Origin: an uncultured Bacteroidales bacterium
GTDB lineage: Bacteria > Bacteroidota > Bacteroidia > Bacteroidales > UBA932
DNA length: 64,000 nucleotides
Direction of reading: 5' to 3'
Assembly: GCA_946410455.1 (NCBI GenBank)
Contig: CAMKAJ010000004.1
Coordinates: 34,576 to 98,575 of the forward strand
The notes under the pieces are model-generated. The model had not been told where the DNA came from. It saw only the letters and a list, made by a program, of their open reading frames with translations, and made no database searches. Position 1 is the first letter of the stretch. Every line of letters starts with the position of its first letter. A program made the translations under genes and the position numbers. Of the stretch, positions 1 through 19,784 are shown piece after piece.

Positions 1-885
1 CTGACGATGGACGACGACCTGTCCGTCAACAGGTTCATATTTACAATTCCCGTGTCTTCGGAAGCCTCTCAGCCATCCGGGCCGATCAGCGTCAGCACCA
101 AGGACAAGTCCATAATGGTGGTCGAGGACGACAGGGACATGGCGCGGGTCATCGGGGATATTCTCAGCGAGTCGTATGACATAATGCATGCGTCCAACGG
201 CCGCCAGGCCCTTGACAAGATAGAGGCTGGCGCGTCTCCAACGCTGGTCGTTTCGGACGTGATAATGCCGGAAATGGATGGAATTGCCCTCACGAAGGCC
301 CTGAAGGGCAATCTGGCCACAAGCCATATACCGGTCATCCTGCTTTCGGCGGAGGTGCCGGACGTGTTCATGCAGGAAAGCCTCGAAGGCGGGGCGGACG
401 CATATCTGGAGAAGCCGTTTTCGCCGAAAAAACTGCGCAGCACCGTTGACAACCTCATCGAAAACCGCAAGCGCATCTACGAATTCTATATATCTTCGCT
501 TCCGTCTGACGGAGAACTGCCTTCCGGAAGGGTTTCCGCCCAGGAGCAGAAGTTCCTGCGCAGCATCCAGGAGTATGTTTCGGCCAATCTGCACAGGAAC
601 ATCACCCTGGACGACCTTGCCGAAGTCGTGTGCCTGTCTCCTTCCACCCTGTACAAAAAAATGAAGGATTATGCCGGACTTGCACCAATGGAATACGTGA
701 TGAAAGTACGCCTTCACAGGGCAGTGGAACTGCTTAAGGATGATTCCGTATCGGTACAGGAAGTGGCTTCCGCCGTTGGCTTCAACACCCATTCCTTCTT
801 CTCGGAGTGTTTCAAGCGTGAATTCGGCATGACGCCGCGCCAATGGAGACTGCGTAACGTAGCCAAAGGACAGAATATCAAATGA
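1..885 (+). CDS. Hybrid two-component system regulator, C-terminal part (end of kinase ATPase domain, receiver, AraC HTH); truncated by window edge
   Basis: Frame is open to the window start; receiver motifs VVEDDRDM / VVSDVIMPEMDG / EKPFSPKKL, then AraC-type HTH 'LSPSTLYKKMKDYAGLAPMEYV...VASAVGFNTHSFFSECFKREFGMTPRQWR'. Confidence 0.9.
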   Translation: MTMDDDLSVNRFIFTIPVSSEASQPSGPISVSTKDKSIMVVEDDRDMARVIGDILSESYDIMHASNGRQALDKIEAGASPTLVVSDVIMPEMDGIALTKALKGNLATSHIPVILLSAEVPDVFMQESLEGGADAYLEKPFSPKKLRSTVDNLIENRKRIYEFYISSLPSDGELPSGRVSAQEQKFLRSIQEYVSANLHRNITLDDLAEVVCLSPSTLYKKMKDYAGLAPMEYVMKVRLHRAVELLKDDSVSVQEVASAVGFNTHSFFSECFKREFGMTPRQWRLRNVAKGQNIK

Positions 886-2462: not shown

Positions 2463-5400
2463 ATGAGACGTTTAGCGTTAACACTGTTTTTCTCTCTCCT
2501 CGCCGTTGCAGGCTTCTCCCAGGAGATCACCCTCACGGGCGTCGTAAAGGACGCTGTCACCGGCGAACCGGTAATCGGAGCCGGCGTAATTGTGAGGGGT
2601 GCATCAGGCGGGACCGTCACTTCCATCGACGGAGAATTCTCGATTGCCGCGTCCATCGGCAAGGAAATAGTCATTTCGTCCCTGGGATACAAAGACTACA
2701 CCTTCAAGGTCACGGGCCCCGGCCCCATGGAAATCCAGATGTCCTCATCGTCAGAATTTCTGGACGAAGTGGTCGTCGTGGGCTACGGTACCACCAAACG
2801 CGCCAACCTTACAGGCGCTGTCGACCAGGTGACTTCGGAGGTGTTCTCCGGGCGTCCTTCCTCCAATACCACACAGATGCTGGTGGGAGCGATCCCCAAC
2901 CTGAACATCACGCTGTCAGACGGCAAGCCAAGCCGCACTGCGGACTACAACATCCGAGGTGCTACTTCCGTGGGCGGCGGCGGAAGCGCGCTGGTGCTGA
3001 TTGACGGAGTCGAGGGCGACCCCTCCCTGCTCAACCCCGACGACATCGAGAGCGTCTCGGTCTTGAAGGATGCCGCATCGGCGTCCATCTACGGTTCGCG
3101 GGCCACGTTCGGCGTCGTGCTCATCACCACCAAGAGCGCTTCTCCGGAAGCAGGTAAGTTCAACTTCAGTTATAACGAAAACATATCATTCCTCTCGCCC
3201 ACCAACCTTCCGAACATAGTTGATGACGGATATGTATATGCTTGCTTGTTCAGGGATTCGTACTACAACTACCAGGGAACCATGCCGTCCGGCTTCAATT
3301 CTCTCATGGATTTTTCCCAGGCCTGGCTGGACGAGTTCCTCCGCCGCAAGCAGAAGGGCATCAAGGAGGAAGTGGACATCGACGAGAGCGGGCGGTATGT
3401 CTATTACGGCAACACGAACTACTACAAGGTCATATACAAGCCGTATACGATGGCCAGGACCCACAACATCTCGGCCAGCGGCACTTCAGGAAAAATCGAC
3501 TATTATCTTTCCGGTCGCGTCTATAAGTACGACGGCATCCTGAATTTCAACCCCGATACATATTTCACATCGGCGCTCAGGTCAAAGATAACCGCCCGTC
3601 CGTTCGAATGGCTGAAAATATGGGAAAACCTTTCGTTTAACTATGACAAGAACCATATCCCTGCCAACCACAACCAGAACAACTCCGGCCAATTCCTGCG
3701 CAGCATTCAGGATGTCGGTTTCGTCTGTTTCCCCATTTGGAACCCCGATGGCACCTTCACCAAGAGCGGTGCCAGGGCAATCGGCGGTCTGGTGACAGGA
3801 AAGAACTACACCGACAAGCTCCGCAACACCCTCTCCTCCACGACGGGACTCCGGGCCGAGTTCTTCGACAAGTCGCTGCGCCTGAATACTGATTTCTCCG
3901 TCAAGACCAATTGGGAAAACCAATTCAAGAAGAATACGATGGTCTGCTATAGCGAGGCCCCCGGGGAGATCACCTGGGTCGGAACTCCCGGCGTGAACGA
4001 CTATATCCAGGAAACCTGGTTCAAGAGCCTGTACATGTCTACCAACGCTTATGCGGAATACGGAAATATTTGGAATGCGAAGCATGATTTCAAGGCGCTT
4101 GTAGGTTTCAACTGGGAGTCGTATGCCAGCAAAACCTTCCAGATGCTGCGTTACGGTCTCATTTCCGAAGATGTCGAGTCCATCAATATGGCGATGGGCG
4201 ACAACTTCTCCGAATATTCTTACGAGGGAAAGTGGAAAAGCGCCGGTTTGTTCGCAAGGATTAACTATGCGTTCGATGAGCGTTACCTTCTTGAACTGAA
4301 CGGCCGTTATGACGGTTCTTCCAAATTCCCCACGAACCAGCAATGGGGCTTCTTCCCTTCGGCTTCGGCCGCCTGGAGAGTGTCCAAGGAGCCTTGGTGG
4401 CGCATCAGAAATTCCATAATCTCGAGCCTCAAGCTGCGCGCCTCCTGGGGCGAACTCGGCAACGGTAACGTCTCGGAGTATTCGTTTATTGAGCGCTTCG
4501 GTTTCTCCAACCTCAGCAACGTCATCGACGGTCAGGGGAAAAGGCGCATCACGAACGTTCCCAGTCCGATTCCCGACAACCTTACATGGGAGACATCCCG
4601 CACGATAGACGGCGGAATCGACATAGGCTTCTACAACGGCAAGATCAACTTTACCGGAGATTATTACGTCCGCAACACCCTGAACATGTACACCGTGGGC
4701 CCGAAACTGCCTGACACCTTCGGCACCAGCGCTCCCAAAGGCAATTACGCCGACCTGGTCACCCGCGGCTTCGAGCTCTCCCTAAGCTATGACGACTCCT
4801 TCCAGCTTGCCGGGAAACCTTTCAACTACGGCCTAAGGGCCACCCTGGCAGACAACCGTTCCTTCATCACCCGTTACAACAACCCTTCGAAAGAGCTCAG
4901 CGATTATTACGAAGGGCAGGAAATCGGAGAGATATGGGGATATAAGTTCGTCGGTTTCTTTGAAAGCCAGGAACAGATAGACAATTACTACGGCCCAGGA
5001 GACCCTTACGTCAACAAGATTATCCAATATAACAACGGATACGTATCCAAACCGGGCGATGTGATTCTCGAGGACAGGAACGGCAACCATCAGGTTGATA
5101 AGGGCGCCCAGACTGCCGATGACCCTGGCGACCTGGTCGTCATTGGCAACAAGCACCCGCGGTTCCCTTACTCCCTTTCCCTCAATATGGAGTGGAACGG
5201 CTTCTTCGCCTCGGCGATGTTCCAGGGCATCGGCAAGCAGGACTGGTATCCGAGCGGCGAATCCATCATCTGGGGCCAGTACCACAGACCTTACGGCAAC
5301 GCCCTGGCCTGGACCGTCAACAACGCATGGACTCCGGAAAATCCGGATTCGTTCCTTCCCAAGTACAGCGGATACTACCGCATCTTCTTTACAAGCCAGC

Positions 5401-5699
5401 ACAAGGTAGACCGCTATATCATGGACGCTTCTTACTTCCGCCTGCAGAATCTCCAGGTTGGCTGGAACCTTCCTCGAAGCTGGGTCAGCAAGATAGGCAT
5501 GAGCGGAATCAGCATCTATTTCTCAGGTGAGAACCTCTACACCTGGGCTCCTCTCTACCGGCTTACTACCGACGTGGATGTGGTCACGGCGACCCATGGT
5601 TCCGACGTGGACCTCGGAAACGGCGTTGACAACTTTGGCGACGGCAACAGCCTTACTTCTCTGCGTACATTCTCACTGGGTATAACCATCAAAATCTGA
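2463..5699 (+). CDS. SusC-family TonB-dependent outer-membrane transporter
   Basis: Carboxypeptidase-D-like N-domain 'GVVKDAVTGEPVIGAGVIVRG', plug 'VVVGYGTTKRANLTGAV', 'NIRGATSVGGGGSALVLIDGVEGD', C-terminal beta-barrel. Confidence 0.97.
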   Translation: MRRLALTLFFSLLAVAGFSQEITLTGVVKDAVTGEPVIGAGVIVRGASGGTVTSIDGEFSIAASIGKEIVISSLGYKDYTFKVTGPGPMEIQMSSSSEFLDEVVVVGYGTTKRANLTGAVDQVTSEVFSGRPSSNTTQMLVGAIPNLNITLSDGKPSRTADYNIRGATSVGGGGSALVLIDGVEGDPSLLNPDDIESVSVLKDAASASIYGSRATFGVVLITTKSASPEAGKFNFSYNENISFLSPTNLPNIVDDGYVYACLFRDSYYNYQGTMPSGFNSLMDFSQAWLDEFLRRKQKGIKEEVDIDESGRYVYYGNTNYYKVIYKPYTMARTHNISASGTSGKIDYYLSGRVYKYDGILNFNPDTYFTSALRSKITARPFEWLKIWENLSFNYDKNHIPANHNQNNSGQFLRSIQDVGFVCFPIWNPDGTFTKSGARAIGGLVTGKNYTDKLRNTLSSTTGLRAEFFDKSLRLNTDFSVKTNWENQFKKNTMVCYSEAPGEITWVGTPGVNDYIQETWFKSLYMSTNAYAEYGNIWNAKHDFKALVGFNWESYASKTFQMLRYGLISEDVESINMAMGDNFSEYSYEGKWKSAGLFARINYAFDERYLLELNGRYDGSSKFPTNQQWGFFPSASAAWRVSKEPWWRIRNSIISSLKLRASWGELGNGNVSEYSFIERFGFSNLSNVIDGQGKRRITNVPSPIPDNLTWETSRTIDGGIDIGFYNGKINFTGDYYVRNTLNMYTVGPKLPDTFGTSAPKGNYADLVTRGFELSLSYDDSFQLAGKPFNYGLRATLADNRSFITRYNNPSKELSDYYEGQEIGEIWGYKFVGFFESQEQIDNYYGPGDPYVNKIIQYNNGYVSKPGDVILEDRNGNHQVDKGAQTADDPGDLVVIGNKHPRFPYSLSLNMEWNGFFASAMFQGIGKQDWYPSGESIIWGQYHRPYGNALAWTVNNAWTPENPDSFLPKYSGYYRIFFTSQHKVDRYIMDASYFRLQNLQVGWNLPRSWVSKIGMSGISIYFSGENLYTWAPLYRLTTDVDVVTATHGSDVDLGNGVDNFGDGNSLTSLRTFSLGITIKI

Positions 5700-5704
5700 C
5701 GGAT

Positions 5705-7555
5705 ATGAAAAAGTACAGGATATTTCTCATCTGCGCGTCAATAGCGCTGAGTTTCTCTTCCTGCTCCCTGGTGGAGATGCCGATAACATCCGGCAACAGG
5801 TCCATTATCTTCGGCTCCGCATCGGGCCTGGAGTCATATTCGTTGTCGTTCTACCAGCAGCTACCTTCCCTAAGCAGCCTGAGCGCGAGGGAGGGCTCCA
5901 CCGACTATGGTGTGGCAAAGAACGTAAGCCAGTTCTATACCGCCACATACAGCGCCGAGACGCCCACGTCCTGGGGTTGGGGCAACCTCCGCAAGGTAAA
6001 TTACTTCATAGACGGCATACATAGCGACGACTGCACCGTTACCCAGGCAGACAAAGACCACTACGAAGGCCTCGCCCGCTGGTTCAGGGCATATTTCTAT
6101 TACGACAAGCTCTTCACTTACGGAGGTGTGCCCTGGTTCGACCATTGCCTGAACAATGACGATCTGGACGAGATGTACAAGAACCGCGATCCCCGCGACA
6201 CCATCATCACCCACATAATCAAGGATTTGGATTTTGCTGCGGAACATATACGCACAGAGTCATCCATAGGCAATACACGAATCTCGAAGAATGCCGCATA
6301 TGCGCTCAAGAGCCGCGCCTGCCTATGGGAAGCTTCGTGGCGCAAGTACCATAATATAGAGACCTCTCAATGGTCTGCCGAGGCGCTATACCGTCTGGCT
6401 GCCGAGGCGGCAAAGGCCGTCATGAACGATCCGCTGGTCAAGCTCAATACTACGATATGCGCCGATGCATATATGACAAACAACCCTTCCCTCGGAGCCT
6501 ACCGCAGCCTTTTCTACTCCAAAGAGCCAATGACGGACGAGGTCATTCTCGGAGTCCAGGCATCCTTGACCGACCTTGTGACAGGAGATGCCAACTGGTA
6601 TTGGAATTCGGCCACCTACGGGGACTGCATGTGTATGTCCAGAGCCTTTGTCTTCACTTACCTGTGCACCGACGGAACCCCGTTTACCGACAAGCCCAAG
6701 TACAAGGCCATCAGCTTCATAAACGAATTCAGCGGGCGTGACGAAAGGCTTGCCCAGACCGTCAAAGGCCCACGCTATGAAATAGCTGGCGGAGGATGGA
6801 GAGACCGCAGGCCTAATATAGTCGACGGTGTCGCAATCACCGGATACCAGGTAATTAAGTTTGTCGAAGACGCTACTGCCAAGAACGGCACGAGCAAGAA
6901 CGAAAACAGCCTCCCCGTCATACGTTTTGCCGAGGTGCTGTTGAATTATGCCGAGGCCATGGCGGAACTGGGAGAGCTCAGCGATGCCGACTGGGCAAAC
7001 ACCATAGGTGCCCTGCGCCTTAGGGCCGGTTTCCAGGACAAGGCGGGAGTTACTTCTTCCAAGCCTACCAAGATCGATTCATACCTGAAGGATACCTTCT
7101 ACCCCGACATCAACGACCCTGTCATCCTCGAAATCCGTAGGGAAAGGGCTATAGAATTGGTCTTCGAGGGCTTCCGCTCCGACGACCTCAAGCGCTGGAA
7201 GGAAGGCAAAAACTTCGAGCGCGTCCCTTGGACCGGACTGCATGTCCCCACGCTGGACGCTCAGTTCGACGTTAACTACGATGATACAAAGGACTTCTAT
7301 TTTACATACAAAGAGTATGGAGAAGTCCCTTCTTACGCGCAGAACAAGTTCGTCCACGTATATCCCGACGACTCTCCCGAGCAGGGGCTCCGACTTGACG
7401 AAAACCCTGACGGCGGTTATGATCCCCGCTACGAGGTCATCGTAAAACGCAAATGGTTCGACGATGACCGGCAGTACCTGTATCCTATCCCCGCCGAGGT
7501 AATTCGCGAGTATAATAACCGTGGTTATAAACTGGACCAGAATCCCGGATGGTAA
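5705..7555 (+). CDS. SusD/RagB-family nutrient-binding lipoprotein
   Basis: Signal plus SCS lipobox; 'RWFRAYFYYDKLFTYGGVPW', 'VIRFAEVLLNYAEAMAELG', 'EIRRERAIELVFEGFRSDDLKRW'; directly follows SusC. Confidence 0.96.
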   Translation: MKKYRIFLICASIALSFSSCSLVEMPITSGNRSIIFGSASGLESYSLSFYQQLPSLSSLSAREGSTDYGVAKNVSQFYTATYSAETPTSWGWGNLRKVNYFIDGIHSDDCTVTQADKDHYEGLARWFRAYFYYDKLFTYGGVPWFDHCLNNDDLDEMYKNRDPRDTIITHIIKDLDFAAEHIRTESSIGNTRISKNAAYALKSRACLWEASWRKYHNIETSQWSAEALYRLAAEAAKAVMNDPLVKLNTTICADAYMTNNPSLGAYRSLFYSKEPMTDEVILGVQASLTDLVTGDANWYWNSATYGDCMCMSRAFVFTYLCTDGTPFTDKPKYKAISFINEFSGRDERLAQTVKGPRYEIAGGGWRDRRPNIVDGVAITGYQVIKFVEDATAKNGTSKNENSLPVIRFAEVLLNYAEAMAELGELSDADWANTIGALRLRAGFQDKAGVTSSKPTKIDSYLKDTFYPDINDPVILEIRRERAIELVFEGFRSDDLKRWKEGKNFERVPWTGLHVPTLDAQFDVNYDDTKDFYFTYKEYGEVPSYAQNKFVHVYPDDSPEQGLRLDENPDGGYDPRYEVIVKRKWFDDDRQYLYPIPAEVIREYNNRGYKLDQNPGW

Positions 7556-7571
7556 GAAATAACGACAAGCA

Positions 7572-10124
7572 ATGAAAACACTGAAATATTTTGCATTATT
7601 CCTGCTCGTGGCGCTGCTGATTCCTTCCTGCTATCAGCATCAGCAGCTGGACTACAGCAAATGGTATACAGTTGAAACGGATCCCGACGAACCGCTTCCT
7701 ACCGAAGACATAAGCGGATTGATGATAATGTCCTCCAACGTCCGTTTTTATTCGGCACGCGACAAAAAGGATGATCCCGACACAGGCGAACGCGACTGGG
7801 AAGTTCGCAAGAAAGGGTACTTCCAGATGGTCAACACCATGCAGCCTGTAGTGATGGGCCTGCAGGAGGCCGAGATGAACCAGGTGACAGATATCATCTC
7901 AAACTGCAAGGGTTACTCTTACATAGGCGTCGGCCGTAATGACGGAGCCCAGAAAGGTGAATCCACTTCAATTCTTTATAAGACAGACGAGATAATAGTG
8001 GAGGACTGGGGTACGAAGTGGCACTCGGAGACGCCGGATACCCCTTATACCTGGTTCCCCGAAATGTCTCCCAACTCTCCCAGGACGCATACCTGGGCAG
8101 TCCTTACAGTCAAAGAAAGCGGACGCAGGTTTTTCTACCTCAATACCCACCTGAGCCTGGATGAGGCAGCCCAGCCAAGAGAAGTGGAACTGATACTGCA
8201 GACTGTGCAGGAAAAGTGTCCCGTCGGTCTTCCTGTTGTGCTTTCCGCCGACTGGAACGTGGAAGAGGACGATGCTTGTCTGGCGCCGCTACTGAAAAAG
8301 TATGCCTCTGCCAGACAGACAGCCCCTCTTACAGACAATATCGAGACTTTCCACTGGTGGGGAAGTCAGAGCACAATAAGCAAACATCAGCACCTGGACC
8401 ACATTTTCTGGTCTGGATTCGAGAAGTGCATGCGTTTCCGCACCCTCAATATGAAGTGGAAGGGCCTGTGGATTTCCGACCACCATCCTGTCTATGCTAT
8501 CTTCCAGTTCAAGACGGGATCTGCGGAAAAACCCAAGCCTGTGGCTGACTTCGATCTCCCGGCGAATCCCAGGATGGATGAAACCATTAAGTTCTTCGAC
8601 AAGTCAACATCTGCCGACGGAATAGAGATTTGGGAGTGGAACATAGGAGGTCTCCTGTCTTCTGCCCAGAATCCTGAAGTGGTGTTCAATACTTACGGCG
8701 ACAACATTCCGGTGACGCTTACCGTCACGGACCACTACGGCCAGAAATCCACGGCTTCCAAATCTTTCTCCGTTTCGCTTTCGGAAGGTCATGACATGAC
8801 AATCGAATGGAGTGTGGTATACGATGATACGAAAGACGGGAAAGGCACTGCCGTGGCGGACTGGACTGCCCCGGCCGTTACGCCGGACTGCAGCAAGATT
8901 TACGTGGCGTCTTCAGGCTATAATCTTGTCGGGTTCACCCCGGACGGCACTTCATTTGGCAGCTATAATATTGGCAAACGCGAGCCCTCAATCTCCGACC
9001 GTGACATCCAGACTCCGACTCCATCCATAGACGCCCAGGGCAATGTTTATATTCCTGTGCAATATGCATACATTGAAGGAGGCAACGGCGGCCTGTATTC
9101 GATCAGGCCTGATCTCTCCGGCGAAAATTGGTATCATGCCACCGGCGGCACATCGCAGTACCGCTGCACGATTCCAGCAATAGTGGGAGATTACGTGGCT
9201 CTCGTACTCACGAACTGCGGAGAAGACCTTGAAAGGAACGCCGCCGTTTTCAGGCGCTCCAACGGTTCGCTTGTCCAGGTCCTGGAGTGCGACAAAGGCT
9301 CTTGGGGCGGAATGGCCGTAGGTTACAAAGGAGAGCTGATATATGCTACCAACCGCGGCGGAACCAAACAGGGGCGCGAACCCGGGACCGAAAGCGGCGG
9401 CGGATACCATGTATCCCCTGTAGACGGCAGCATCGGTGCCTGGAAGAGCTCTCCCAACAGCGATGAAGGCCGCAAGACCAATCTCCTGGGAATGCGCCAT
9501 ACCGACGGCAACGGATACCTGGCCAAAGCTGGCCAGCCTGCGGTTGGAACCGACCACTGCGTCTATGTGTGCTCCACCAGCGACAACCAGAATATGATTT
9601 GCGCCAAGTACAACCTGGACAGTTATGTATTTGGTTCTGCGCCTACCCCTCTCTGGAAGGTGGAACTGGAGACCAAGTCAAATAGCGGCGTCCTCGGCCT
9701 CGGCTGTGTGCTTGACAAGGACGGCAATGCTTATTTCCGCGCGGCGGAGAAAGTCTTCCGGCTTAACGGCAAGACAGGCGAAACGGCCTGGACGTACAAC
9801 ACCTCCGGCAACTACAATACAGGAGTCCCGGCCATTGATTCAATGGGTTATCTGTATGTGGTGGACTACGGCGGCAACGACGGCAACAAGCTGCTCAAGC
9901 TGTCATCCGCCGACGGCAAGCTAATCTCGTCCGTCGATCTCGACAGTCCGAGAACCAGCCCCACCATCGCACCGGACGGAACCATTTATGTGACCGGCTC
10001 TTCCAGCCAGGGTGCAATACTCTACAGAATTACCTGTCCCAAAACCACCGCCCCCGGTCCCAACTGGTCGCAGCTCGGCGGCAATCCACAAAAGACTTGC
10101 ACGCCCCCCGGTTTCAATTTATAG
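7572..10124 (+). CDS. Lipoprotein: endonuclease/exonuclease/phosphatase (EEP) domain - PKD - PQQ/BamB-like beta-propeller
   Basis: EEP motifs 'MSSNVRFYS', 'GLQEAE', 'LNTHLS', 'SADWN', 'LDHIFW', 'ISDHHPVYAIF'; PKD-like 'EIWEWNIGGLLSSAQNPEVVFNTYG'; propeller repeats 'GNVYIPVQYAY', 'SPTIAPDGTIYVTG', 'NWSQLGGNPQKT'. Confidence 0.85.
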   Translation: MKTLKYFALFLLVALLIPSCYQHQQLDYSKWYTVETDPDEPLPTEDISGLMIMSSNVRFYSARDKKDDPDTGERDWEVRKKGYFQMVNTMQPVVMGLQEAEMNQVTDIISNCKGYSYIGVGRNDGAQKGESTSILYKTDEIIVEDWGTKWHSETPDTPYTWFPEMSPNSPRTHTWAVLTVKESGRRFFYLNTHLSLDEAAQPREVELILQTVQEKCPVGLPVVLSADWNVEEDDACLAPLLKKYASARQTAPLTDNIETFHWWGSQSTISKHQHLDHIFWSGFEKCMRFRTLNMKWKGLWISDHHPVYAIFQFKTGSAEKPKPVADFDLPANPRMDETIKFFDKSTSADGIEIWEWNIGGLLSSAQNPEVVFNTYGDNIPVTLTVTDHYGQKSTASKSFSVSLSEGHDMTIEWSVVYDDTKDGKGTAVADWTAPAVTPDCSKIYVASSGYNLVGFTPDGTSFGSYNIGKREPSISDRDIQTPTPSIDAQGNVYIPVQYAYIEGGNGGLYSIRPDLSGENWYHATGGTSQYRCTIPAIVGDYVALVLTNCGEDLERNAAVFRRSNGSLVQVLECDKGSWGGMAVGYKGELIYATNRGGTKQGREPGTESGGGYHVSPVDGSIGAWKSSPNSDEGRKTNLLGMRHTDGNGYLAKAGQPAVGTDHCVYVCSTSDNQNMICAKYNLDSYVFGSAPTPLWKVELETKSNSGVLGLGCVLDKDGNAYFRAAEKVFRLNGKTGETAWTYNTSGNYNTGVPAIDSMGYLYVVDYGGNDGNKLLKLSSADGKLISSVDLDSPRTSPTIAPDGTIYVTGSSSQGAILYRITCPKTTAPGPNWSQLGGNPQKTCTPPGFNL

Positions 10125-10130
10125 CAGATT

Positions 10131-10265
10131 ATGAAAAAAATATATCTCACTCCTGAAACTCTATTGGGTCCTGTGTTTGGAAGCAGCCGTCCTCTGTGCG
10201 CCAGCACCGAGTCGTTGACCTCCCTCGAAGAAAGTGACGACCTGAGCGGCCTGGATTGGAATTAA
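10131..10265 (+). CDS. Small ORF, 44 aa (MKKIYLTPETLLGPVFGSSRPLCASTESLTSLEESDDLSGLDWN); resembles short acidic, Trp-ended Bacteroidota peptides
   Basis: ATG..TAA read directly from sequence; tightly packed between two same-strand genes (6 nt and 13 nt gaps); absent from supplied ORF track because of its size. Confidence 0.65.
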   Translation: MKKIYLTPETLLGPVFGSSRPLCASTESLTSLEESDDLSGLDWN

Positions 10266-10278
10266 TCAAGCAAACAGT

Positions 10279-13200
10279 ATGAAAAAGTTGTATCCACTAG
10301 CTCTTCTGGTCCTGTTTGCTTGCTCTCAGGAACCAGTTGTTCCCGTAGAACCGGAAACCATAACCTTCAGTGCCGAGATTGCCGCACCTGATGCCACAAA
10401 AACGCAACTCGGGGATAAAACCGGCACGTCCTATCCCAATTACTGGTCGGCTGGAGACGCCATTTCAGTCAATGGCATCACTTCGGGCGCCATCGCCGAC
10501 GATTCGGAATACGTAGGCACCGCCAAGGCGACATTTAACATCCAGGGCGTCATCAACGCTCCATATTATTGTGCATACCCCGCTCCCGCGATATCTTCGT
10601 ACAGTAACGGATCCGCGGTTGTCACCCTCCCGGCCACTCAAAGGATGTCCGCGACAAGTTACGACGCGTCTGCCTTTGTCATGGCGGGCAGCAGCAGTTC
10701 TGCGTTGCTGACTTTCTCGCCTTTGGTGAGTGTCGTCAAGCTCACCATTCCGGGATTATATGATGCAAGAGTTTCATCCGTGTTATTCGAGAGTCTCGGG
10801 TCGGAAAAAGTGAGCGGACAGTTCAGTACCGACTTCAGCAGCCTCTCACCCCGTTCCGGAGCCAGTTCCAGGGTGTGCGTGTATGCTTCCGGAGACGGCA
10901 CCGCTTTCGGCAGCAGCATGTATATGGTAATCCCTGCTCAGACTTATGCGAGCGGCATGCGTTTCACTATCCGGGCCACCGACGGCACGCAAATGACATT
11001 CTCCACGTCCAATTCGTTTACAGCTCAGGCGGGCAAGGTATATCCCCTTACATCCAAGACGTATGTTCCCGAGCCGGAAACGATTCCCGACGGTTTGTTT
11101 GTGATGTCATCCAACGTGCGATTTGCATCGGCCCGTGACAAATCCAGCAATCCTGATACGGGAGACCGGGACTGGACAAACCGCAGGAGCGCTTATTACG
11201 CAATGGTAAACAATTACCGCCCGGCTATCATCGGCCTCCAGGAGGCGGAAAGGGAACAGGTTTCCGATATCAAGAGCAACTGCAGCGGCTACAACCACTA
11301 TGGCCTTGGCAACAAACTTGGGGAAAATATCACGAAGTCCGACGGGCTGTGGAACCTGTGGGGCAAAACGAGCAACGGAGAATCCTCCACCATACTCTAC
11401 AGGACTGATCTGATTACCCTGAACAGTTCAGGCACGGTATGGCACTCTAACACGCCCAACAAAGCGGGCACCTATTTCTCCGGGATGTCGGACAGCAAAC
11501 CACAGGCCTCTGCCTGGGCCATCATGACCTACAAGCCCACGAACACCCAGTTCTTCCTGATGAACGTCCATCTGAGTATATACGATACTGAGCCCCAGGA
11601 AATTGCCCTCATTATGAACACGGTCAACAGCAAGAACACCGGCAATCTCCCTGTCATCATTATCGGAGACTGGAACCTGAAGGACGGTGACTCATGGCTG
11701 AATCCCCTCGAGGCCGTCTATTACAATGCACGCCAAAGGGCACAGAAGACTGACGATTACGGGAGCTACCACTGGTGGGGTACCGAGAGCAAAAAGATAG
11801 ACCATATTTACTATAAGGGCATCGGTGACTGCTATCTTTTCCGCACCGATGCGAGGAAGTGGAACGACAAGTACGTTTCCGACCATTATCCCGTCTTTGC
11901 AGTCTTCGGCGTCAACAGCAGCACCCCGGCCATGCCTGTAGCCAACTTCGAAATCCCCGGCAGCATCCAGATTGATGAGCCCGTCACTTTCACCGACCTT
12001 TCCTCATCCCCCTCCGGCATAGCCTATTGGGAATGGGACTTCGACGGAATACGCTCCAACGAGCAGAATCCCACTGTTACTTTCACCTCCATCAAGAGTG
12101 ACGTTCAGGCCAGGCTTACCGTCATCGACAACAATGGCAACATGGCTACGGCGACAAAGTTCATCGAGATTGAAGGCTCCGACGAGCATGCCATTACACA
12201 GGTCTGGAGCAGGGCATATGACACCACGGAAGGCGCTTGCGCCTACTGGGGTTCACCGGCAGTTAATGCCGCCGGCAACAGGATATATGTGTCATCCTCC
12301 GGCTACCACTTGGTTGGCTTCAATTCATCCGGAACGCAGATTGGAAGCTACGACCTTTGCGAGTACAGTCCCAACATGCCTGCCTCGCTGACTTTCCAGA
12401 CGCCCACGCCATCCATTGACAACAACGGGAATGTCTTTATGCCGGTACAGTATCAGAGCAGCGATGGCGGCAACGGTGGTTTGTTCAGCATCAAGGGAGA
12501 CTTGTCTGCCAAGAACTGGTATGTTCCTACCGGTCCCAAATCCCAGTACCGCAACTGTATCCCGGCCATCTTCGGAGACTATGTAAGCGTCCTGATGCGG
12601 AACGTTGGCGGAGATTTCTCCTCTAATATGCTAATTTTCAACCGCAAGGACGGGACACTGAACCAGCAATTAAATGTGGATAAAGGATCCTATGGCGGCA
12701 TGGCCGTAAGCGCCGACGGCAAGCTTGTGGTCAGTACGGCACGCGGTGATGCCGAGGATACCGGCGGCGGCTATAAGGTCTACCTGATCGATGGTGCATA
12801 CGGCACCTGGAAGACATCGTCCAACAACGACACCGGCCGGTCTTACAACCTGCTCGGCCTTGCCCATACCGACGGCAACAATTACATGGCCAAGGGCAAT
12901 CAGCCGGCCATTTCCGCAATCGACGGCAGCGTGTATGTGGTATCGACTACAACCGCAGAGGATATATTGGTTTGCGCACGCTACAGCCTCAACTCCTATG
13001 TGTACAACTCCGTCCCTACGCCTATATGGAAGGTTGAGGTCGAGGCGGCAGCCAACAACTATGGTCTTGGATGCGTGCTGGACGACGAGGGCAACGCCTA
13101 TGTGCGCGCCGCCAACAAGGTGTTCAAGCTGAATGCCTCCGATGGCTCGTTGCTGTGGGAATTTACCACCGGCACTGGCAACTGCGGCGTGCCCGCTATT

Positions 13201-13545
13201 GACAATATGGGCTACGTGTATGTGACGGATTCAGGAAAACAGCGCATCTACAAGCTCTCGCCCCAGAACGGCAGCCTCGTGTCCCAGATAGTTATATCCG
13301 GTTACCAGCCCCGTACGAGTCCCACCATAGACTACAGCGGCAATATTTATGTTGCCGCCACATCCATCAACGACGATGGCGTCTATCTCTTTAAACTTAC
13401 CTCCCCGAGGACTACAGGGCCCGGTGCCAACTGGAGCCAGCTCGGTGGCAATCCCATGAAGACTTGCGTGGTGCCCGGAGCCACAGAGGTCTACAATTCC
13501 ACAGGCTCCTCCCACGAAGGTTACATGACAACTGACTTGTTCTGA
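10279..13545 (+). CDS. Lipoprotein: fimbrillin-like N-domain - EEP - PKD - PQQ/BamB-like beta-propeller (paralog of 7572..10124)
   Basis: Lipobox 'LFACSQ'; 'ITFSAEIAAPDATKTQLGD...YWSAGDAISVNG' is fimbrillin-like; EEP motifs 'LQEAE','MNVHLS','IIGDWNLKDGD','IDHIYY','VSDHYPVFAVF'; propeller 'NWSQLGGNPMKTC'. Confidence 0.85.
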   Translation: MKKLYPLALLVLFACSQEPVVPVEPETITFSAEIAAPDATKTQLGDKTGTSYPNYWSAGDAISVNGITSGAIADDSEYVGTAKATFNIQGVINAPYYCAYPAPAISSYSNGSAVVTLPATQRMSATSYDASAFVMAGSSSSALLTFSPLVSVVKLTIPGLYDARVSSVLFESLGSEKVSGQFSTDFSSLSPRSGASSRVCVYASGDGTAFGSSMYMVIPAQTYASGMRFTIRATDGTQMTFSTSNSFTAQAGKVYPLTSKTYVPEPETIPDGLFVMSSNVRFASARDKSSNPDTGDRDWTNRRSAYYAMVNNYRPAIIGLQEAEREQVSDIKSNCSGYNHYGLGNKLGENITKSDGLWNLWGKTSNGESSTILYRTDLITLNSSGTVWHSNTPNKAGTYFSGMSDSKPQASAWAIMTYKPTNTQFFLMNVHLSIYDTEPQEIALIMNTVNSKNTGNLPVIIIGDWNLKDGDSWLNPLEAVYYNARQRAQKTDDYGSYHWWGTESKKIDHIYYKGIGDCYLFRTDARKWNDKYVSDHYPVFAVFGVNSSTPAMPVANFEIPGSIQIDEPVTFTDLSSSPSGIAYWEWDFDGIRSNEQNPTVTFTSIKSDVQARLTVIDNNGNMATATKFIEIEGSDEHAITQVWSRAYDTTEGACAYWGSPAVNAAGNRIYVSSSGYHLVGFNSSGTQIGSYDLCEYSPNMPASLTFQTPTPSIDNNGNVFMPVQYQSSDGGNGGLFSIKGDLSAKNWYVPTGPKSQYRNCIPAIFGDYVSVLMRNVGGDFSSNMLIFNRKDGTLNQQLNVDKGSYGGMAVSADGKLVVSTARGDAEDTGGGYKVYLIDGAYGTWKTSSNNDTGRSYNLLGLAHTDGNNYMAKGNQPAISAIDGSVYVVSTTTAEDILVCARYSLNSYVYNSVPTPIWKVEVEAAANNYGLGCVLDDEGNAYVRAANKVFKLNASDGSLLWEFTTGTGNCGVPAIDNMGYVYVTDSGKQRIYKLSPQNGSLVSQIVISGYQPRTSPTIDYSGNIYVAATSINDDGVYLFKLTSPRTTGPGANWSQLGGNPMKTCVVPGATEVYNSTGSSHEGYMTTDLF

Positions 13546-13547
13546 CG

Positions 13548-14813
13548 ATGAAAAAAAAGAGTCTGTTCTGCGCGGTTCTTGTGGTTCTTTTCGCATCCTG
13601 TACGGAAACCCTGCCTCCTTTCCCGGAGGTGGGTGAGCCTTATGCCATCACGCAGGAGCCTGGAGACCACCTGCTGGCCAATTACTTCGGAATAAATGCA
13701 TGGAGTCCGGACGGACGCTACGTGTGCGTGCTGGGCACGGACTTCACCGGAAGGCTTCCGGAAGCCACGGACACTGCCACGGTTGCCCTGGTGGACCTTA
13801 AGGACAGCTGCCGGTACATACCCATAGGCCGCACGACATCCTGGAACTTCCAGGAAGCCGCCATGTTCCATTGGCTGCCTTGGGAAAACGGGCTTTGCGC
13901 TTTCAATGACTTCCGGGACGGCAGGTTCGTGACCGTGATGCTAAACTGGAAGACTGGTGCTGAACGCATCGTTCCCCGTCCGCTAAGTGCGGTGGATCCT
14001 TCAGGCGAGTGGGCTGTGAGCCTGAACTACGCCCGCCTGCGCGTCTGCCGTCCCGACTACGGTTATGCAGGGGACGGGCAGGACCCGCTTCTGGATGAAG
14101 TGTGGCCGGAGGATGACGGCCTGTGGCTGCTCAACCTCAAGACCGGCGAGGAAAGGCTGTTGCTCTCGGTCGCAGCTGCCAGGGAACAGATGCCGGAGAT
14201 TACTTCCGACGACGGTCTTGCATATTTCTGCCACACCATCATCAGCCCGGATGCAGGAAGAGTCTTCTTCCTTGCGAGGACGGTACAGAACTTCAAGGCC
14301 CAGCTTGCCGAACGCGGATATGTGTACAATTGGGACACTGTGTCCTTTACAATACGGACCGACGGTACGGAACTGCGCCGCTGTTTCCCGGACGGATGGA
14401 AGGGGTCTCACTTCAACTGGAAAGACAACGAAACGCTCGCCGTCACCGCCAGATGGAACGGCAACCAGACCTGGGCCCATACAGTGTTTACCGTAGGGCA
14501 GGAAGATAAAGTCCGCCATCTGGCTCCCGGTATAATGGACTGGGACGGCCACTGTATCTTTGCGCCCAACGGCAAGTTCATCAGCAGCGAGGGCTATTGG
14601 AACAAGGACGGTTACCGCAGCTGGGTGCTCCTGCGACTTGAAGACGAAGCTCTAATCTCCATCGGGCGCTTCTTTGTGCCGGACGCATATAAGGAGCAGT
14701 ATTCCCGCTGCGACCTCCACGCCCGCTGGAAGCCGGACGGCAGCCAGCTGGCGTTCAATTCCGTGCACGAAGGAAGCCGGCAGGTATATCTGAGAGATGT
14801 AAAATGGCAGTAG
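13548..14813 (+). CDS. TolB-like / oligogalacturonate-lyase-like beta-propeller lipoprotein
   Basis: Lipobox 'FASC'; 'INAWSPDGRYVCVLGTDF', 'SRCDLHARWKPDGSQLAFNSVHEGSRQVYL'. Confidence 0.7.
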   Translation: MKKKSLFCAVLVVLFASCTETLPPFPEVGEPYAITQEPGDHLLANYFGINAWSPDGRYVCVLGTDFTGRLPEATDTATVALVDLKDSCRYIPIGRTTSWNFQEAAMFHWLPWENGLCAFNDFRDGRFVTVMLNWKTGAERIVPRPLSAVDPSGEWAVSLNYARLRVCRPDYGYAGDGQDPLLDEVWPEDDGLWLLNLKTGEERLLLSVAAAREQMPEITSDDGLAYFCHTIISPDAGRVFFLARTVQNFKAQLAERGYVYNWDTVSFTIRTDGTELRRCFPDGWKGSHFNWKDNETLAVTARWNGNQTWAHTVFTVGQEDKVRHLAPGIMDWDGHCIFAPNGKFISSEGYWNKDGYRSWVLLRLEDEALISIGRFFVPDAYKEQYSRCDLHARWKPDGSQLAFNSVHEGSRQVYLRDVKWQ

Positions 14814-14815
14814 AT

Positions 14816-16246
14816 ATGAAAAGAATTGCACTCATCGTTTCTCTCCTTGCGGCAGGCGCCTGGCTGCTTTGTGCCCAGAACGCCCAGCCTAATATCGCGT
14901 CTGTCAACATCGACTTGACGATAGACCCTGCGGTCATCGAGGGGCCGCTGAAGCCGATGAATGCCGTGAACAACGGACCGTACATAGACGATGCGGTCCA
15001 GATGCTGGATTTCCGTATCCTCAAGATTCCTTACAGCCGCACGCACGATGCCAATCTGGGATACTACGGTGAGCGGGTAGTGGATATAAGCGCCATTTTC
15101 CCGGACTTCTGCAAAGACCCGAACAATCCTGCGGCATACGACTTCCGCGAGACGGACGCGTACATAAAGACTCTGATAGATTCCGGCTGTGAGCCTTTCT
15201 ACAGGCTGGGACAGTCCATAGAGAACCAGACCGCAGCCAAGTACAATATTTATCCTCCCAGGGACTACAAGAAGTGGGCGAAGGTCTGCGAGCACATCAT
15301 AATGCATTATAACGAGGGCTGGGCAGACGGTTTTCACTACAATATACGCTACTGGGAAATATGGAACGAGGCCGACCTGGACCAGAGCTCAGGCCGCTGG
15401 AAGACTGAGCCGCGTACCTGGGGCGCCCCCATAGAGGAGTTCCATAAGTTTTATGCGGTGGCGGCCAAACACCTCAAGGAGCGTTTTCCGGGCTTGAAGA
15501 TAGGAGGACCCTCTTACTGTCGCATACAGGGCACGAAAACGTATTTCCCGGCATTCTTCGAGTACATGAGAGACAATCATGTGCCGATTGACTTCATATC
15601 CTGGCACAAATACGGCTCGGAACCGTCGGTTTACCTGATGGAGGCAGATCTGATACGGGGGTGGATGAAGGAGTACGGGTACGAAGATGCCGAGCTTATA
15701 CTGAACGAGTGGAATTACCGCAGGATCAAAAGTGGCAACGGCTCAAGCAATGAGCGTTACAACCGTGATAGCCGTATTTCCATGAGGGGAGCGGCTTTCG
15801 CCGGTGCTGTCATGTCGGCCATGCAGCATGCCTCGGTCGATATGCTTATGTACTATGATTATCGTCCGGATACTTCCTGGTGCGGCTTCTATGACAATCA
15901 GACCGAAGCCCGCAAATCTCTGTTCTATACCTTCTACGCCTGGAGCAAGCTCAAGGGCGACGTCTGCGAATGCAAGGTGGAGGGCGGTATCGGAGACGTA
16001 TATCCCGTAGCTGCCGTCGACGGAGGCAGGACGGTTCTCATGCTCACCCGTTACAACGGCGACAACAACACCTGCAACCTGGCCAGGGTAACCATTTCTC
16101 TCAAGGGACGCGGGTTCAAGGACGTTGTATTCTGCCATTTAACGGATGAAGAACACATCTATACGGAAATGCCCATTTTCCCCAACGCAGACGGGACACT
16201 GAGCCTGGAACTGGGGAACAATTCTATTGCACTGCTTGAACTGTAG
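14816..16246 (+). CDS. GH39-like glycoside hydrolase (beta-xylosidase/alpha-L-iduronidase clan)
   Basis: 'YWEIWNEADL' (acid/base NE) and 'ELILNEWNY' (putative nucleophile); signal peptide. Start placed at MKRIALIV, 2 nt after the upstream stop. Confidence 0.8.
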   Translation: MKRIALIVSLLAAGAWLLCAQNAQPNIASVNIDLTIDPAVIEGPLKPMNAVNNGPYIDDAVQMLDFRILKIPYSRTHDANLGYYGERVVDISAIFPDFCKDPNNPAAYDFRETDAYIKTLIDSGCEPFYRLGQSIENQTAAKYNIYPPRDYKKWAKVCEHIIMHYNEGWADGFHYNIRYWEIWNEADLDQSSGRWKTEPRTWGAPIEEFHKFYAVAAKHLKERFPGLKIGGPSYCRIQGTKTYFPAFFEYMRDNHVPIDFISWHKYGSEPSVYLMEADLIRGWMKEYGYEDAELILNEWNYRRIKSGNGSSNERYNRDSRISMRGAAFAGAVMSAMQHASVDMLMYYDYRPDTSWCGFYDNQTEARKSLFYTFYAWSKLKGDVCECKVEGGIGDVYPVAAVDGGRTVLMLTRYNGDNNTCNLARVTISLKGRGFKDVVFCHLTDEEHIYTEMPIFPNADGTLSLELGNNSIALLEL

Positions 16247-16249
16247 CCC

Positions 16250-18031
16250 ATGAAAAAGATCTTGTTGCCCGTACTGCTTCTGCTCCTTTCCGCACTGCCC
16301 GCCTCTTCCTTCGGCCTGTACGAAGGCAGGGAGACCGTTTCCCTGGGCGGGCGCTGGAACTATATAGTGGATCCTATGGATACGGGTATCTACAAGTATC
16401 ACATGACGCTCCAGAAGCCTCACAAACGCTATTTCGCCGACCGTCACTTCTACCAGGACAAGAGTACCCTGATAGAGTACGACTTCGATAAGTCTCCATG
16501 CCTGAATGTTCCAGGAGACTGGAATTCCCAGTCCGAAAAGCTTTATTATTACGAGGGGAGCGTTTGGTACCGCCGCCTGGTTGATTTCCACCCGGTGCCC
16601 GGAAGGCGCTGGTTCCTTTATTTCGGTGCGGTGAACTATAAATGCATGGTAGGACTCAACAACACCATCCTCGGTACGCATAAAGGCGGGTTTACGCCGT
16701 TCTGGTTCGAGGTGACGGACGTGCTGAAAGAAGGGGAGAACAGCCTGGTAGTTTATGTGAACAACAGCAGGGGAGTGTCGGAAGTACCGACCATCAACTA
16801 CGACTGGTGGAACTACGGCGGCATTACCCGTGACGTTTTGCTGGTGAGCGTGCCGGAAGTGTTCATCACGGACTATCGTATCAGTTTCGACGGCTCCATG
16901 GTCGATGTTTCGGTGAATCTGGACGGCGGCCGCGGGCAGGTTGCCGTGGAGATCCCCGAACTCGGAATCAAAAAGACTGCGTGTGCCTGCAAGGGTGCGG
17001 CTCATTTCAGGTTCAAGGCGTCCCCCGAACTCTGGTCTCCCGAGCACCCCCGTTTGTACGACATTACTGTGCGTAGCGACGCCGACAGCATTACCGACAA
17101 AGTAGGCTTCCGCACTATCCGGGTAGAAGGGGAAAAGATACTGCTGAACGGTGAGCCTGTTTTCCTTAAAGGAGTAGCCGTACACGACGAAACCATCAGC
17201 CCTAATCCCGGCCGCTGCCGCAGCGAAGCGGATGTGCGCGCCCTTCTGGAGGCGGCAAAAGACCTCGGGTGCAATTTCCTGCGCCTTGCGCATTATCCCC
17301 ACAGCGAGCAGATGGTCCGCCTTGCCGAGGAAATGGGCTTCATGCTCTGGGAAGAAATCCCATGCTACTGGAATATCGACTGGTCGTCCGAAGAAACCCA
17401 CGCTAATGCGGAAAACCAGCTCGTGGAGATGATAAGCAGGGATTATAACCGGGCGGCCGTGATAATCTGGTCGGTGGCCAATGAGACTCCCTGCACTCCG
17501 GAAAGGCTGGACTTCCTTGGAAAACTGATTTCCAAGGCAAGGTCGTTGGATCCGGTGCGCCTGGTAAGTGCTGCCATGCAGAAAGAGAAGCCGGACTTTT
17601 ATCACCCTGTAGTTGAGGATGAGTTGATTTCGCTGACAGATATCATCAGCTTCAACCAGTATTACGGCTGGTACGACGGCAAACCGGCGGACTGCGACTC
17701 CGTGGTCTGGTCCATCCCGCGCGGGAAGCCCGTGGTGTTCAGCGAATTCGGCGGCGGCGCGCTCTATGGCAACCATGGCAGCGACATTGAAATGTTTACG
17801 GAAGAATATCTCGAGCTGTTGTACCGGAAAAACCTTTCGATGCTGTCGAAGATTCCGGGCCTCAGCGGCCTCTGCCCTTGGTGCCTTAAGGATTTCCGCT
17901 CTCCCAAGCGCCCTCTCACCGGTATCCAGGACGATTTCAACCGCAAGGGCCTCATTGACGAGCAAGGCCGCCGCAAGCAGGCATTCTTCGTAGTTAAAGA
18001 CTTTTACGGGCGGGATATTTTGCAGTTTTAG
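16250..18031 (+). CDS. GH2-family glycoside hydrolase (beta-galactosidase/beta-glucuronidase-like)
   Basis: 'GDWNSQ', 'FLKGVAVHDE', 'LRLAHYPHSEQM', 'IWSVANETP', 'VVFSEFGGGAL'. Confidence 0.92.
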   Translation: MKKILLPVLLLLLSALPASSFGLYEGRETVSLGGRWNYIVDPMDTGIYKYHMTLQKPHKRYFADRHFYQDKSTLIEYDFDKSPCLNVPGDWNSQSEKLYYYEGSVWYRRLVDFHPVPGRRWFLYFGAVNYKCMVGLNNTILGTHKGGFTPFWFEVTDVLKEGENSLVVYVNNSRGVSEVPTINYDWWNYGGITRDVLLVSVPEVFITDYRISFDGSMVDVSVNLDGGRGQVAVEIPELGIKKTACACKGAAHFRFKASPELWSPEHPRLYDITVRSDADSITDKVGFRTIRVEGEKILLNGEPVFLKGVAVHDETISPNPGRCRSEADVRALLEAAKDLGCNFLRLAHYPHSEQMVRLAEEMGFMLWEEIPCYWNIDWSSEETHANAENQLVEMISRDYNRAAVIIWSVANETPCTPERLDFLGKLISKARSLDPVRLVSAAMQKEKPDFYHPVVEDELISLTDIISFNQYYGWYDGKPADCDSVVWSIPRGKPVVFSEFGGGALYGNHGSDIEMFTEEYLELLYRKNLSMLSKIPGLSGLCPWCLKDFRSPKRPLTGIQDDFNRKGLIDEQGRRKQAFFVVKDFYGRDILQF

Positions 18032-18062
18032 GTAATACTCGTACATTACAAAACAGTTCGTG

Positions 18063-19784
18063 ATGATGAAAAAGATATTTTCGCTGCTAATCGCCGCCCT
18101 GATGGTGCTGGCTGCATATTCATGTGAGAAAGACCCTGAGCCCGTGGATCCTGATCCCGGGAACAAAGAGGAAGAAGTCACTCCCGTGGAAACACCTGAG
18201 ACACCCCTCGTGTCCAAAGGGGCCTACAAGCATGTTGTGATAGTCGGAGTCGACGGTGCAGGAGCGTTCTTCAAGGATACGCCAACACCCCGCTGCGACG
18301 AGATTTTCGCCGGCCAGGCCACGACCTACAGGTCCAAGACATCGTTCCCTACCATCAGCGCCCAGTGCTGGACTTCCATGCTGCACGGCGTGCTTCCCGA
18401 GTTTCACGGCATCACGAACGACATTTCCGAAGATAAGAACGTCCATTATCCGGTGAAGAGCCCTTATCCGTCCATCTTCCGGGTGGCGCGCGAGGCTCAT
18501 CCGGATGCGAAACTGGCTTCCTTCGTGAGCTGGTACGCCATCAACAACGGCATTATCGAGCAGAATCTCGGGGTCGAAATGGGAGAAACGAAGGACGTAG
18601 ATCCGGAAATAGCGCGCATGACGGTCAGTTATCTTGCCGACAACGCGCCGATGCTGCTGTTCGTTCATTTCGGCTCCCCGGATGTCGTGGGAGAGAAGCT
18701 TGGCTTCGGGACGGACGCCCAGCTGAAGGCCATCAGCGACCTGGATACCTATATCGGATGGATTTACGACCAACTTAAGCTGAAGGGGCTCCTTGACGAT
18801 ACCCTCTTTATCGTCACCGCCGACCATGGCGGCATCGGAAAAAGCCATGGCGGCGACACGGATCAGGAAAGATATGTGTTCCTGGGAATCGCGGGCAAGA
18901 CTGTCGCGGACGGCACCATCGTCGACGCCGAAGCTCGCGACGTCGCTGCAATTTCCGCCTATGCGCTTGGGCTTGAAGCTCCTGAGACATGGACAGGGCA
19001 CGTCCCGGCCGGCGTGTTCAAGGATGTCACCGAGGTGGGTGAACGCAAGACCGGGGAGCTGCCGGGCGCAAAGTACCGCAGCCACCAGACAGCGCCTACC
19101 CCTTCCCTGAGCGACGTGCAGACCCTTCTCGCCAAACATAAGGTGACGGCTTACTTCCCGTTCGACGAAAGCGTCAGCGACGCTTTAGGCAAGGTGCAGA
19201 CAAGCTCTTCCGGCACTCTGAAGTATGAAGACGCCTACTTCGGGAAAGGTGTTGCCCTGAACAACGGGTACGTGTCTTTGAAGGATGTCTCAGTGGGCAC
19301 AGGATCCTTCTCGGCGGCGTTCTGGCTTAAGGCCACGCTGCCCTCGCCCAAGGGCGCCGACCCGGGGCTGATTTCCAACAAAGACTGGAACGAGGGCGTG
19401 TATAAAGGATTCATCCTGTCCCTCAGGGGCACCCGGGATATCAAGTTCAATGTCGGAGACGGCGGCAAGAACAGGATGGATTTCACGCGGGTCCTTCCGT
19501 TCGACTATGACCAAGGCTGGATGCATGTCATCCTGACCGTTGACCGCGAGAACAAAAAGGTCCGCATCTACTACGACTTTATCGACGGAGACGAGGCGGA
19601 CATTCCGGATGCGCTTGCCACCATATCCTTCGACTCGCTGTCTTTCAACATCGGCCAGGACGGCACTGGCAAGCTGTCCTACAGGCTCCCGGCCAGCATA
19701 GACGAACTCATCATCACGTCCGACGTGCTGGACGATGAAGCCATCGCTGCCCTGAAGGCCCACTATATGGCGAAGTCCACGTAG
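18063..19784 (+). CDS. Alkaline-phosphatase superfamily / type I phosphodiesterase-nucleotide pyrophosphatase-like lipoprotein with C-terminal LamG/ConA-like domain
   Basis: 'HVVIVGVDGAGAFF', 'KTSFPTISAQCWTSMLHG', 'LFIVTADHGGIGKSHGG'; C-terminal 'VTAYFPFDESVSDALGK...GSFSAAFWLKA' LamG-like; lipobox 'AAYSC'. Confidence 0.85.
   Translation: MMKKIFSLLIAALMVLAAYSCEKDPEPVDPDPGNKEEEVTPVETPETPLVSKGAYKHVVIVGVDGAGAFFKDTPTPRCDEIFAGQATTYRSKTSFPTISAQCWTSMLHGVLPEFHGITNDISEDKNVHYPVKSPYPSIFRVAREAHPDAKLASFVSWYAINNGIIEQNLGVEMGETKDVDPEIARMTVSYLADNAPMLLFVHFGSPDVVGEKLGFGTDAQLKAISDLDTYIGWIYDQLKLKGLLDDTLFIVTADHGGIGKSHGGDTDQERYVFLGIAGKTVADGTIVDAEARDVAAISAYALGLEAPETWTGHVPAGVFKDVTEVGERKTGELPGAKYRSHQTAPTPSLSDVQTLLAKHKVTAYFPFDESVSDALGKVQTSSSGTLKYEDAYFGKGVALNNGYVSLKDVSVGTGSFSAAFWLKATLPSPKGADPGLISNKDWNEGVYKGFILSLRGTRDIKFNVGDGGKNRMDFTRVLPFDYDQGWMHVILTVDRENKKVRIYYDFIDGDEADIPDALATISFDSLSFNIGQDGTGKLSYRLPASIDELIITSDVLDDEAIAALKAHYMAKST

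Follow-up and report, generated by a model that had tools for sequence, protein, structure and literature searches.

Predicted phosphoesterase-propeller lipoproteins encoded after SusD in a polysaccharide utilisation locus of rumen Bacteroidales

Results

The stretch of DNA analysed here (hereafter the window; 64,000 nucleotides, G000:C4:34576-98575) belongs to a 2.13 Mb Bacteroidales genome and carries, on one strand, a gene cluster arranged around a SusC/SusD pair. Downstream of SusD lie two adjacent paralogous open reading frames (ORFs), EEP1 and EEP2, each joining a DNase I-like endonuclease/exonuclease/phosphatase (EEP) domain to a PKD domain and a BamB-like propeller (Table 1). A first-pass annotation of the sequence had assigned this architecture to both proteins. 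Pfam matches, an identity of 49% across EEP-PKD-propeller and AlphaFold fold matches agree with it at the coordinates tabulated, but it had overlooked a further domain at the N-terminus of EEP2, about 250 residues long and fimbrillin-like (Mfa/FimA-fold).

In both proteins, Exo_endo_phos (4.7e-6 in EEP1, 5.1e-10 in EEP2) and PQQ_2 (1.4e-6 and 8.9e-10) score above the Pfam gathering threshold, while PKD_4 (3.1e-4 and 7.3e-5) falls under it. The AlphaFold model of EEP1 (mean predicted local distance difference test, pLDDT, 82.8; predicted template-modelling score, pTM, 0.64) resembles the solved EEP proteins 3g6s, 3l1w and 4c1r, with template-modelling (TM) scores to target of 0.83-0.88, and its C-terminal part resembles BamB (TM to target 0.75-0.76, blades not being counted independently). 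EEP1 is thus a member of the EEP superfamily by both its above-cut-off Exo_endo_phos match and its four-layer fold. The fimbrillin-like domain of EEP2 (model pLDDT 79.9) matches the adhesins 3t2l and 3ufi as well as Mfa3 (5nf4); Mfa_like_1 scores slightly below the Pfam cut-off in EEP2 and above it in the relative at L030.

The lipobox cysteine is invariant among EEP1 and EEP2 homologues. In EEP1 it is followed by a conserved tether, modelled as disordered, whose LDYSxWY segment occurs in all 16 EEP1s, takes a looser form in unfused EEPs and is absent from EEP2. We propose this segment as a candidate docking peptide onto SusC/SusD.

The EEP motifs quoted in the first-pass annotation as apparently intact are present in both proteins. 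In an alignment of 33 EEP1 and EEP2 homologues reaching down to 44% identity with EEP1, nine predicted catalytic residues (N56, E99, H193, D227, N229, D276, H277, D303 and H304) are invariant; the catalytic site, whose decay would have undermined a catalytic role, is therefore not degraded at the sequence level. Two further motifs of related EEPs are replaced in both proteins: NTHxDHxGxxAR by NTHxS, and TFNGF by TFHWWG. EEP1 and EEP2 consequently lack the sequence signature taken for BT3783-type sugar phosphatases, whose motifs are seen in 3mpr/4c1r, 3g6s or the EEP fused to a SASA domain. Unfused relatives retain NTHLD and, mostly, TYNGF or TYNNW. Because the two motifs are replaced in EEP1 and EEP2 and NTHLD is retained in the unfused relatives, we infer that specificity has probably shifted away from that of BT3783.

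Motif patterns from both EEP domains, applied to one genome per species across 84,980 species, recovered 23 loci, nearly all from metagenome-assembled genomes of rumen, reticulum or omasum or from genomes bearing the RUG/RUI prefixes of rumen series; one locus (L026) has no stated source. Within the genus, 20 of 300 genomes match at E <= 1e-60 (about 7%), while the window genome was the sole match among 150 family, 393 order and 346 phylum genomes. The propeller likewise had no match outside the genus, either in the 393 order genomes (by sequence and profile) or in the 346 phylum genomes. Across these genome sets, the EEP-PKD-propeller architecture thus occurs only within one rumen genus of Bacteroidales, in about 7% of its genomes.

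Wherever EEP1 and its upstream flank were readable (20 loci), SusC and SusD immediately precede EEP1, so that the EEP1 lipoprotein gene holds the position of a surface glycan-binding protein (SGBP), as the first-pass annotation had it. Every relative read had a SusCD context, and routine occurrence outside such loci, which would have told against the association, was not seen. Two genomes (L023 with L033, and L024 with L032) carry EEP2 on a separate contig, EEP1 still accompanying SusCD. The idea that EEP genes follow SusD as a rule was checked outside the genus: of the 20 EEP relatives with flanks read, just one lay beside SusD by SusD profile (L119/L126; at L126 SusC is 44% and SusD 40% identical). 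At the relative locus L129 a BACON protein occupies the slot after SusD instead.

Seven related loci (L059-L064 and L066) encode SusC, SusD, an EEP protein of about 310 residues and a PKD-propeller protein of about 628 residues as separate neighbouring genes, their SusCD being 50-59% identical to that of the window; two others (L127, L128) have the swapped order SusC-SusD-PKD-propeller-EEP. Since the same modules occur as separate neighbours in related SusCD loci, the EEP1/EEP2 fusion, as read from these genes, joins pre-existing partners. Separate partners that were later fused are classical evidence of common function, and their encoding as neighbouring genes in relatives suggests that EEP and PKD-propeller work together. 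The EEP tree joins the unfused forms to EEP1 and EEP2, which themselves make up a supported clade (100/99) with the unfused forms branching below it; the EEP of a GH27 fusion (below) forms a separate lineage. The propeller tree nests the EEP2 propeller within those of EEP1; an approximately unbiased (AU) test of EEP1 propeller monophyly gave p = 0.033, which is only suggestive as the group was chosen after viewing the tree. This nesting, together with the six loci (L025, L028, L030, L034, L036 and L037) in which EEP2 has no propeller, would fit a history in which EEP2 acquired its propeller later. Assembly damage was considered as a cause of these shorter ORFs and rejected, given a short C-terminus shared in several loci and a next gene that directly follows; they look like real genes. 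The sole case that appears frameshifted is at L035 (12594-15793), where EEP2 is split over three frames as a pseudogene or through sequencing error.

A small ORF encoding 42-48 residues stands upstream of EEP2 in 19 of 21 loci read (the window, L015-L022, L025-L029, L031, L033 and L035-L037), with the pattern MKKxYxxP...LCAS...LEExxDLxxLxW; its 44-residue representative in the window has no match in Pfam. At L020, where EEP2 is relocated to the cluster end, the small ORF is relocated with it. The start pattern of this ORF was counted 63 times across the 300 genus genomes, against once for a reversed control, and in 20 fetched regions about 18 MKKxYxxP[DE] ORFs are followed within 200 nucleotides by a fimbrillin-like (Mfa-like) lipoprotein, the N-terminus being judged by eye. 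The small ORF is, on these patterns, conserved, unannotated and paired with fimbrillin-like lipoproteins.

Including the upstream DNA available in L011, the gene order is EEP-GH27, hybrid two-component regulator, GH63/MGH1-like glycosidase, SusC, SusD, EEP1, the 44-residue ORF, EEP2, a TolB-like propeller, glycoside hydrolases (GH) of families 39 and 2, and a nucleotide pyrophosphatase/phosphodiesterase (NPP)-LamG fusion (Table 1). With SusC, SusD, carbohydrate-active enzymes (CAZymes) and a regulator clustered on one strand, this is a polysaccharide utilisation locus (PUL). The nearest solved structures to the GH63/MGH1-like protein are trehalases and the glucosidase YgjK, and those to the GH27 domain are the putative Bacteroides alpha-galactosidases 4nzj and 4ogz. 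Because GH2 is near beta-glucuronidases and galacturonidases and GH27 near alpha-galactosidases, a phosphorylated glycan containing uronic acid and alpha-galactose is suggested as substrate. Further upstream (L011 4269-9832) are two large adjoining lipoproteins of 930 and 864 residues, both fimbrillin-like at the N-terminus and both containing a right-handed beta-helix; relatives of these lipoproteins are found next to L022, L033 and, among the unfused loci, L059-L061.

Table 1. Features of the EEP1/EEP2 locus. Positions are those of the window except where prefixed L011, which is the same locus plus upstream DNA.
Feature	Position	Strand	Basis or remark
EEP-GH27 fusion, 777 aa	L011 11346-13679		Upstream of window
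Hybrid two-component regulator, full gene, 1263 aa	L011:13669-17460		Start upstream of window
Hybrid two-component regulator, C-terminal part (receiver and AraC-type helix-turn-helix)	7..885	+	Pfam
GH63/MGH1-like glycosidase lipoprotein	882..2378	+	Pfam PF22422, 1.4e-29
SusC/RagA TonB-dependent transporter	2463..5699	+	TIGR04056, 750 bits
SusD-like lipoprotein	5705..7555	+	PF07980, 7.1e-39
EEP1, predicted lipoprotein, EEP-PKD-BamB-like propeller, 850 aa	7572..10124	+	
EEP1 post-lipobox tether C-Y-x-x-[QE]-x-LDYSxWY, candidate docking segment	7629..7670	+	Conserved, modelled disordered
EEP1 EEP domain, residues about 50-314	7719..8513	+	Pfam, alignment
EEP1 PKD domain, residues 322-398	8535..8765	+	Pfam, below gathering score
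EEP1 BamB/PQQ-like propeller, residues about 405-835	8784..10076	+	Pfam, predicted fold
44-aa ORF MKKIYLTPETLL...LCAST...LDWN	10131..10265	+	Conserved directly upstream of EEP2
EEP2, predicted lipoprotein, fimbrillin-like-EEP-PKD-propeller, 1088 aa	10279..13545	+	
EEP2 EEP domain, residues about 271-543	11089..11907	+	
TolB/WD40-like propeller lipoprotein	13548..14813	+	PD40, 5e-5; kept across locus relatives
GH39-like glycosidase	14804..16246	+	PF01229, 3.9e-21; nearest solved 5z3k glucosidase
GH2 glycosidase, beta-glucuronidase/galacturonidase type	16250..18031	+	Pfam; nearest solved 6d1n, 7vqm
Type I phosphodiesterase/NPP-like and LamG lectin-like domain, fused	18060..19784	+	PF01663, 1.2e-16; PF13385, 3.8e-13

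In the window genome, L016, L018, L031 and L035 the third EEP of the locus forms one protein with GH27; in L020 (15145-17769, 874 aa) it is joined to GH2, and in L033 it stands free. These alternative forms tie the predicted cleavage of phosphoesters and of glycosidic bonds to one pathway. Elsewhere in the genus EEP domains have other fusion partners: a GH13 alpha-amylase (L130 7033-9777), a SASA-type esterase (L010 6637-8886) and DUF6259 (L013). The last of these loci (G000:C7:32000-51000) is a second SusCD locus of the window genome, where SusD is directly followed by an EEP; it also contains the DUF6259-EEP fusion, a third EEP, a small ORF and a fimbrillin-like lipoprotein.

Discussion

Gene content, synteny, the EEP residue set, predicted folds and the unfused two-gene counterparts together lead us to regard EEP1 and EEP2 as, probably, outer-membrane lipoproteins of a SusCD glycan-uptake machine for a phosphorylated glycan, the EEP domain cleaving its phosphoester. 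From the invariant lipobox cysteine and the SusCD context, lipidation and surface display would be expected. The PKD-propeller would form the receptor-like part that holds the phosphorylated glycan, while the EEP domain would hydrolyse a phosphoester of the bound glycan beside the SusCD mouth, either a bridging phosphodiester or a terminal sugar-phosphate. The trimmed oligosaccharide would then be imported through SusCD, and its breakdown finished by the GH27 enzyme with its fused third EEP, the GH2, GH39 and GH63-like enzymes and the NPP-type phosphodiesterase. The holding, cleavage and import steps are plausible because SusCD utilisomes offer a precedent (PMC7618045); that the EEP domain is catalytic, that the proteins are exposed at the surface and that the propeller binds glycan, we infer from the genes and models described above, and likewise the class of substrate. 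The first-pass annotation had proposed a surface receptor that also cleaves phosphodiester bonds. The pairing of receptor and phosphoesterase gains support from the unfused genes in the same slot, but the restriction to diesters does not, the nearest named solved relative being a sugar monophosphatase.

Several observations weigh against this assignment. The replaced NTHxDHxGxxAR and TFNGF motifs may indicate a changed activity or specificity in EEP1 and EEP2, and the alignment of the region behind the lipobox gave no evident lipoprotein-export signature of the Bacteroidales type. BamB-like propellers can bind protein rather than glycan, and the six loci in which EEP2 has no propeller indicate that a propeller is dispensable for an EEP.

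Of the alternatives, the one we would take most seriously, although we regard it as unlikely, is that the locus scavenges phosphate, surface and periplasmic phosphoesterases freeing phosphate or allowing import of organic phosphorus, with the glycan incidental. A minimal locus, L066 (extracytoplasmic function (ECF) sigma factor, FecR, SusC, SusD, EEP and PKD-propeller), has no glycosidase within the flanks read and favours such a role. The rumen, however, is rich in phosphate supplied by ruminant saliva, and hybrid two-component systems are the kind of regulator that senses glycans in Bacteroidetes. In the PusCD loci of Flavobacterium, SusCD-like transporters do occur together with phosphodiesterases and phosphomonoesterases, yet these loci are phosphate-responsive and hold phosphoesterases in place of CAZymes (PMC8115612), whereas the locus described here has four glycosidases and an adjoining hybrid two-component regulator.

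It is rather improbable, in our estimation, that the EEP domains bind without catalysing and that EEP1 and EEP2 are ordinary SGBPs. The slot after SusD is usually that of an SGBP, and two motifs of related EEPs are altered here, but invariance of all nine predicted catalytic residues over the 33 aligned proteins would be unexpected for a decayed site. We consider it very improbable that the locus removes headgroups from a plant or protozoal phosphoinositol-type glycolipid (such as plant glycosyl inositol phosphoryl ceramides), with EEP and NPP acting like phospholipase C or sphingomyelinase. Neutral sphingomyelinases are EEP superfamily members, the best solved match of the NPP domain is the alkaline sphingomyelinase ENPP7 and a GH2 of the uronidase type would fit; the ENPP7 match is nevertheless weak (1.8e-6), no signature of a hydrophobic substrate accompanies it, and the glucuronic acid of the plant lipids is alpha-linked while the GH2 resembles beta-uronidases. 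A literature search turned up no link of this kind. Least probable of all is use of nucleic acids, with EEP as a surface DNase or RNase and SusCD importing nucleotides or oligonucleotides: the superfamily includes nucleases and the fold matches include TDP2 and CNOT6L, but this was rejected on the closest fold and sequence matches (3mpr/4c1r, that is BT3783, and 3g6s) and on a gene context of glycosidases and of sister EEPs fused to GH27, GH2, GH13 and SASA.

A broader proposal, to which we allow somewhat less than an even chance, is that one group of loci in rumen Bacteroidales centres on the EEP phosphoesterase. A receptor-enzyme fusion on SusCD would process an undescribed phosphoglycan, EEP modules would have been transferred to a range of partners (propeller, GH27, GH2, GH13, a sialate-esterase-like domain and DUF6259), and cleavage of a phosphoester at the surface, rather than of a glycosidic bond, would be the entry step of uptake. 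The surface steps of SusCD systems have so far been described as glycosidase or lyase steps. Should EEP1 act as a phosphoesterase at the cell surface, a receptor-enzyme would exist for phosphorylated glycans as a nutrient class of their own (teichoic acids, phosphomannans and phosphoglycans of protozoa or bacteria), and the locus would help to trace the phosphoglycan on which these abundant rumen bacteria feed. The mobility of EEP modules also shows which domains have been combined in a single pathway.

Relation to described systems

Among named proteins of solved structure, BT3783 (PDB 4c1r, 3mpr), a mannosyl-6-phosphatase of B. thetaiotaomicron, is the nearest relative and the best solved match, at 26% identity and with a TM score to target of about 0.8. 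It comes from the same phylum, is named as a sugar-phosphate enzyme and shares the EEP fold, the sequence group and the QE, DxN and SDH-type catalytic set; in contrast to EEP1 and EEP2, it is a single-domain protein in the PDB, has no PKD or propeller and retains the NTHxDH..AR motif that they have lost. With SusE/F and SGBPs the two proteins share the lipoprotein slot that follows SusD, but they have no SusE or SGBP match in Pfam and carry an intact EEP domain. Their propeller resembles BamB and other PQQ-like propellers in fold and in its PQQ_2 match; it is, however, fused to EEP and PKD within a SusCD locus and scores far below the TIGR03300 cut-off, and is not a subunit of the BAM complex.

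Stable utilisomes for levan and dextran assemble SusCD with a surface enzyme and a binding protein (PMC7618045). The likeness lies in an enzyme and a binding protein serving one SusCD pair, and, judged from their genes, the unfused relatives have the same four-component layout. There, however, a glycoside hydrolase is separate from the SGBP, whereas here a predicted phosphoesterase is fused to the putative receptor. The clustering of SusCD-like transporter genes with phosphodiesterases and phosphomonoesterases is shared with PusCD of Flavobacterium, whose enzymes are periplasmic and of other families (PMC8115612); the present locus differs in placing EEP-PKD-propeller lipoproteins beside SusD.

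The first-pass annotation did not recognise the architecture as a characterised PUL component, and in the literature searched, which mostly excluded subscription papers, we found no description of an EEP-PKD-propeller lipoprotein, of EEP in PULs or of PULs for phosphorylated glycans. Phosphoesterases in SusCD-type loci are already known (PusCD, PMC8115612; BT3783), and what is new here is the EEP-PKD-propeller lipoprotein as a variant, rather than a new class.

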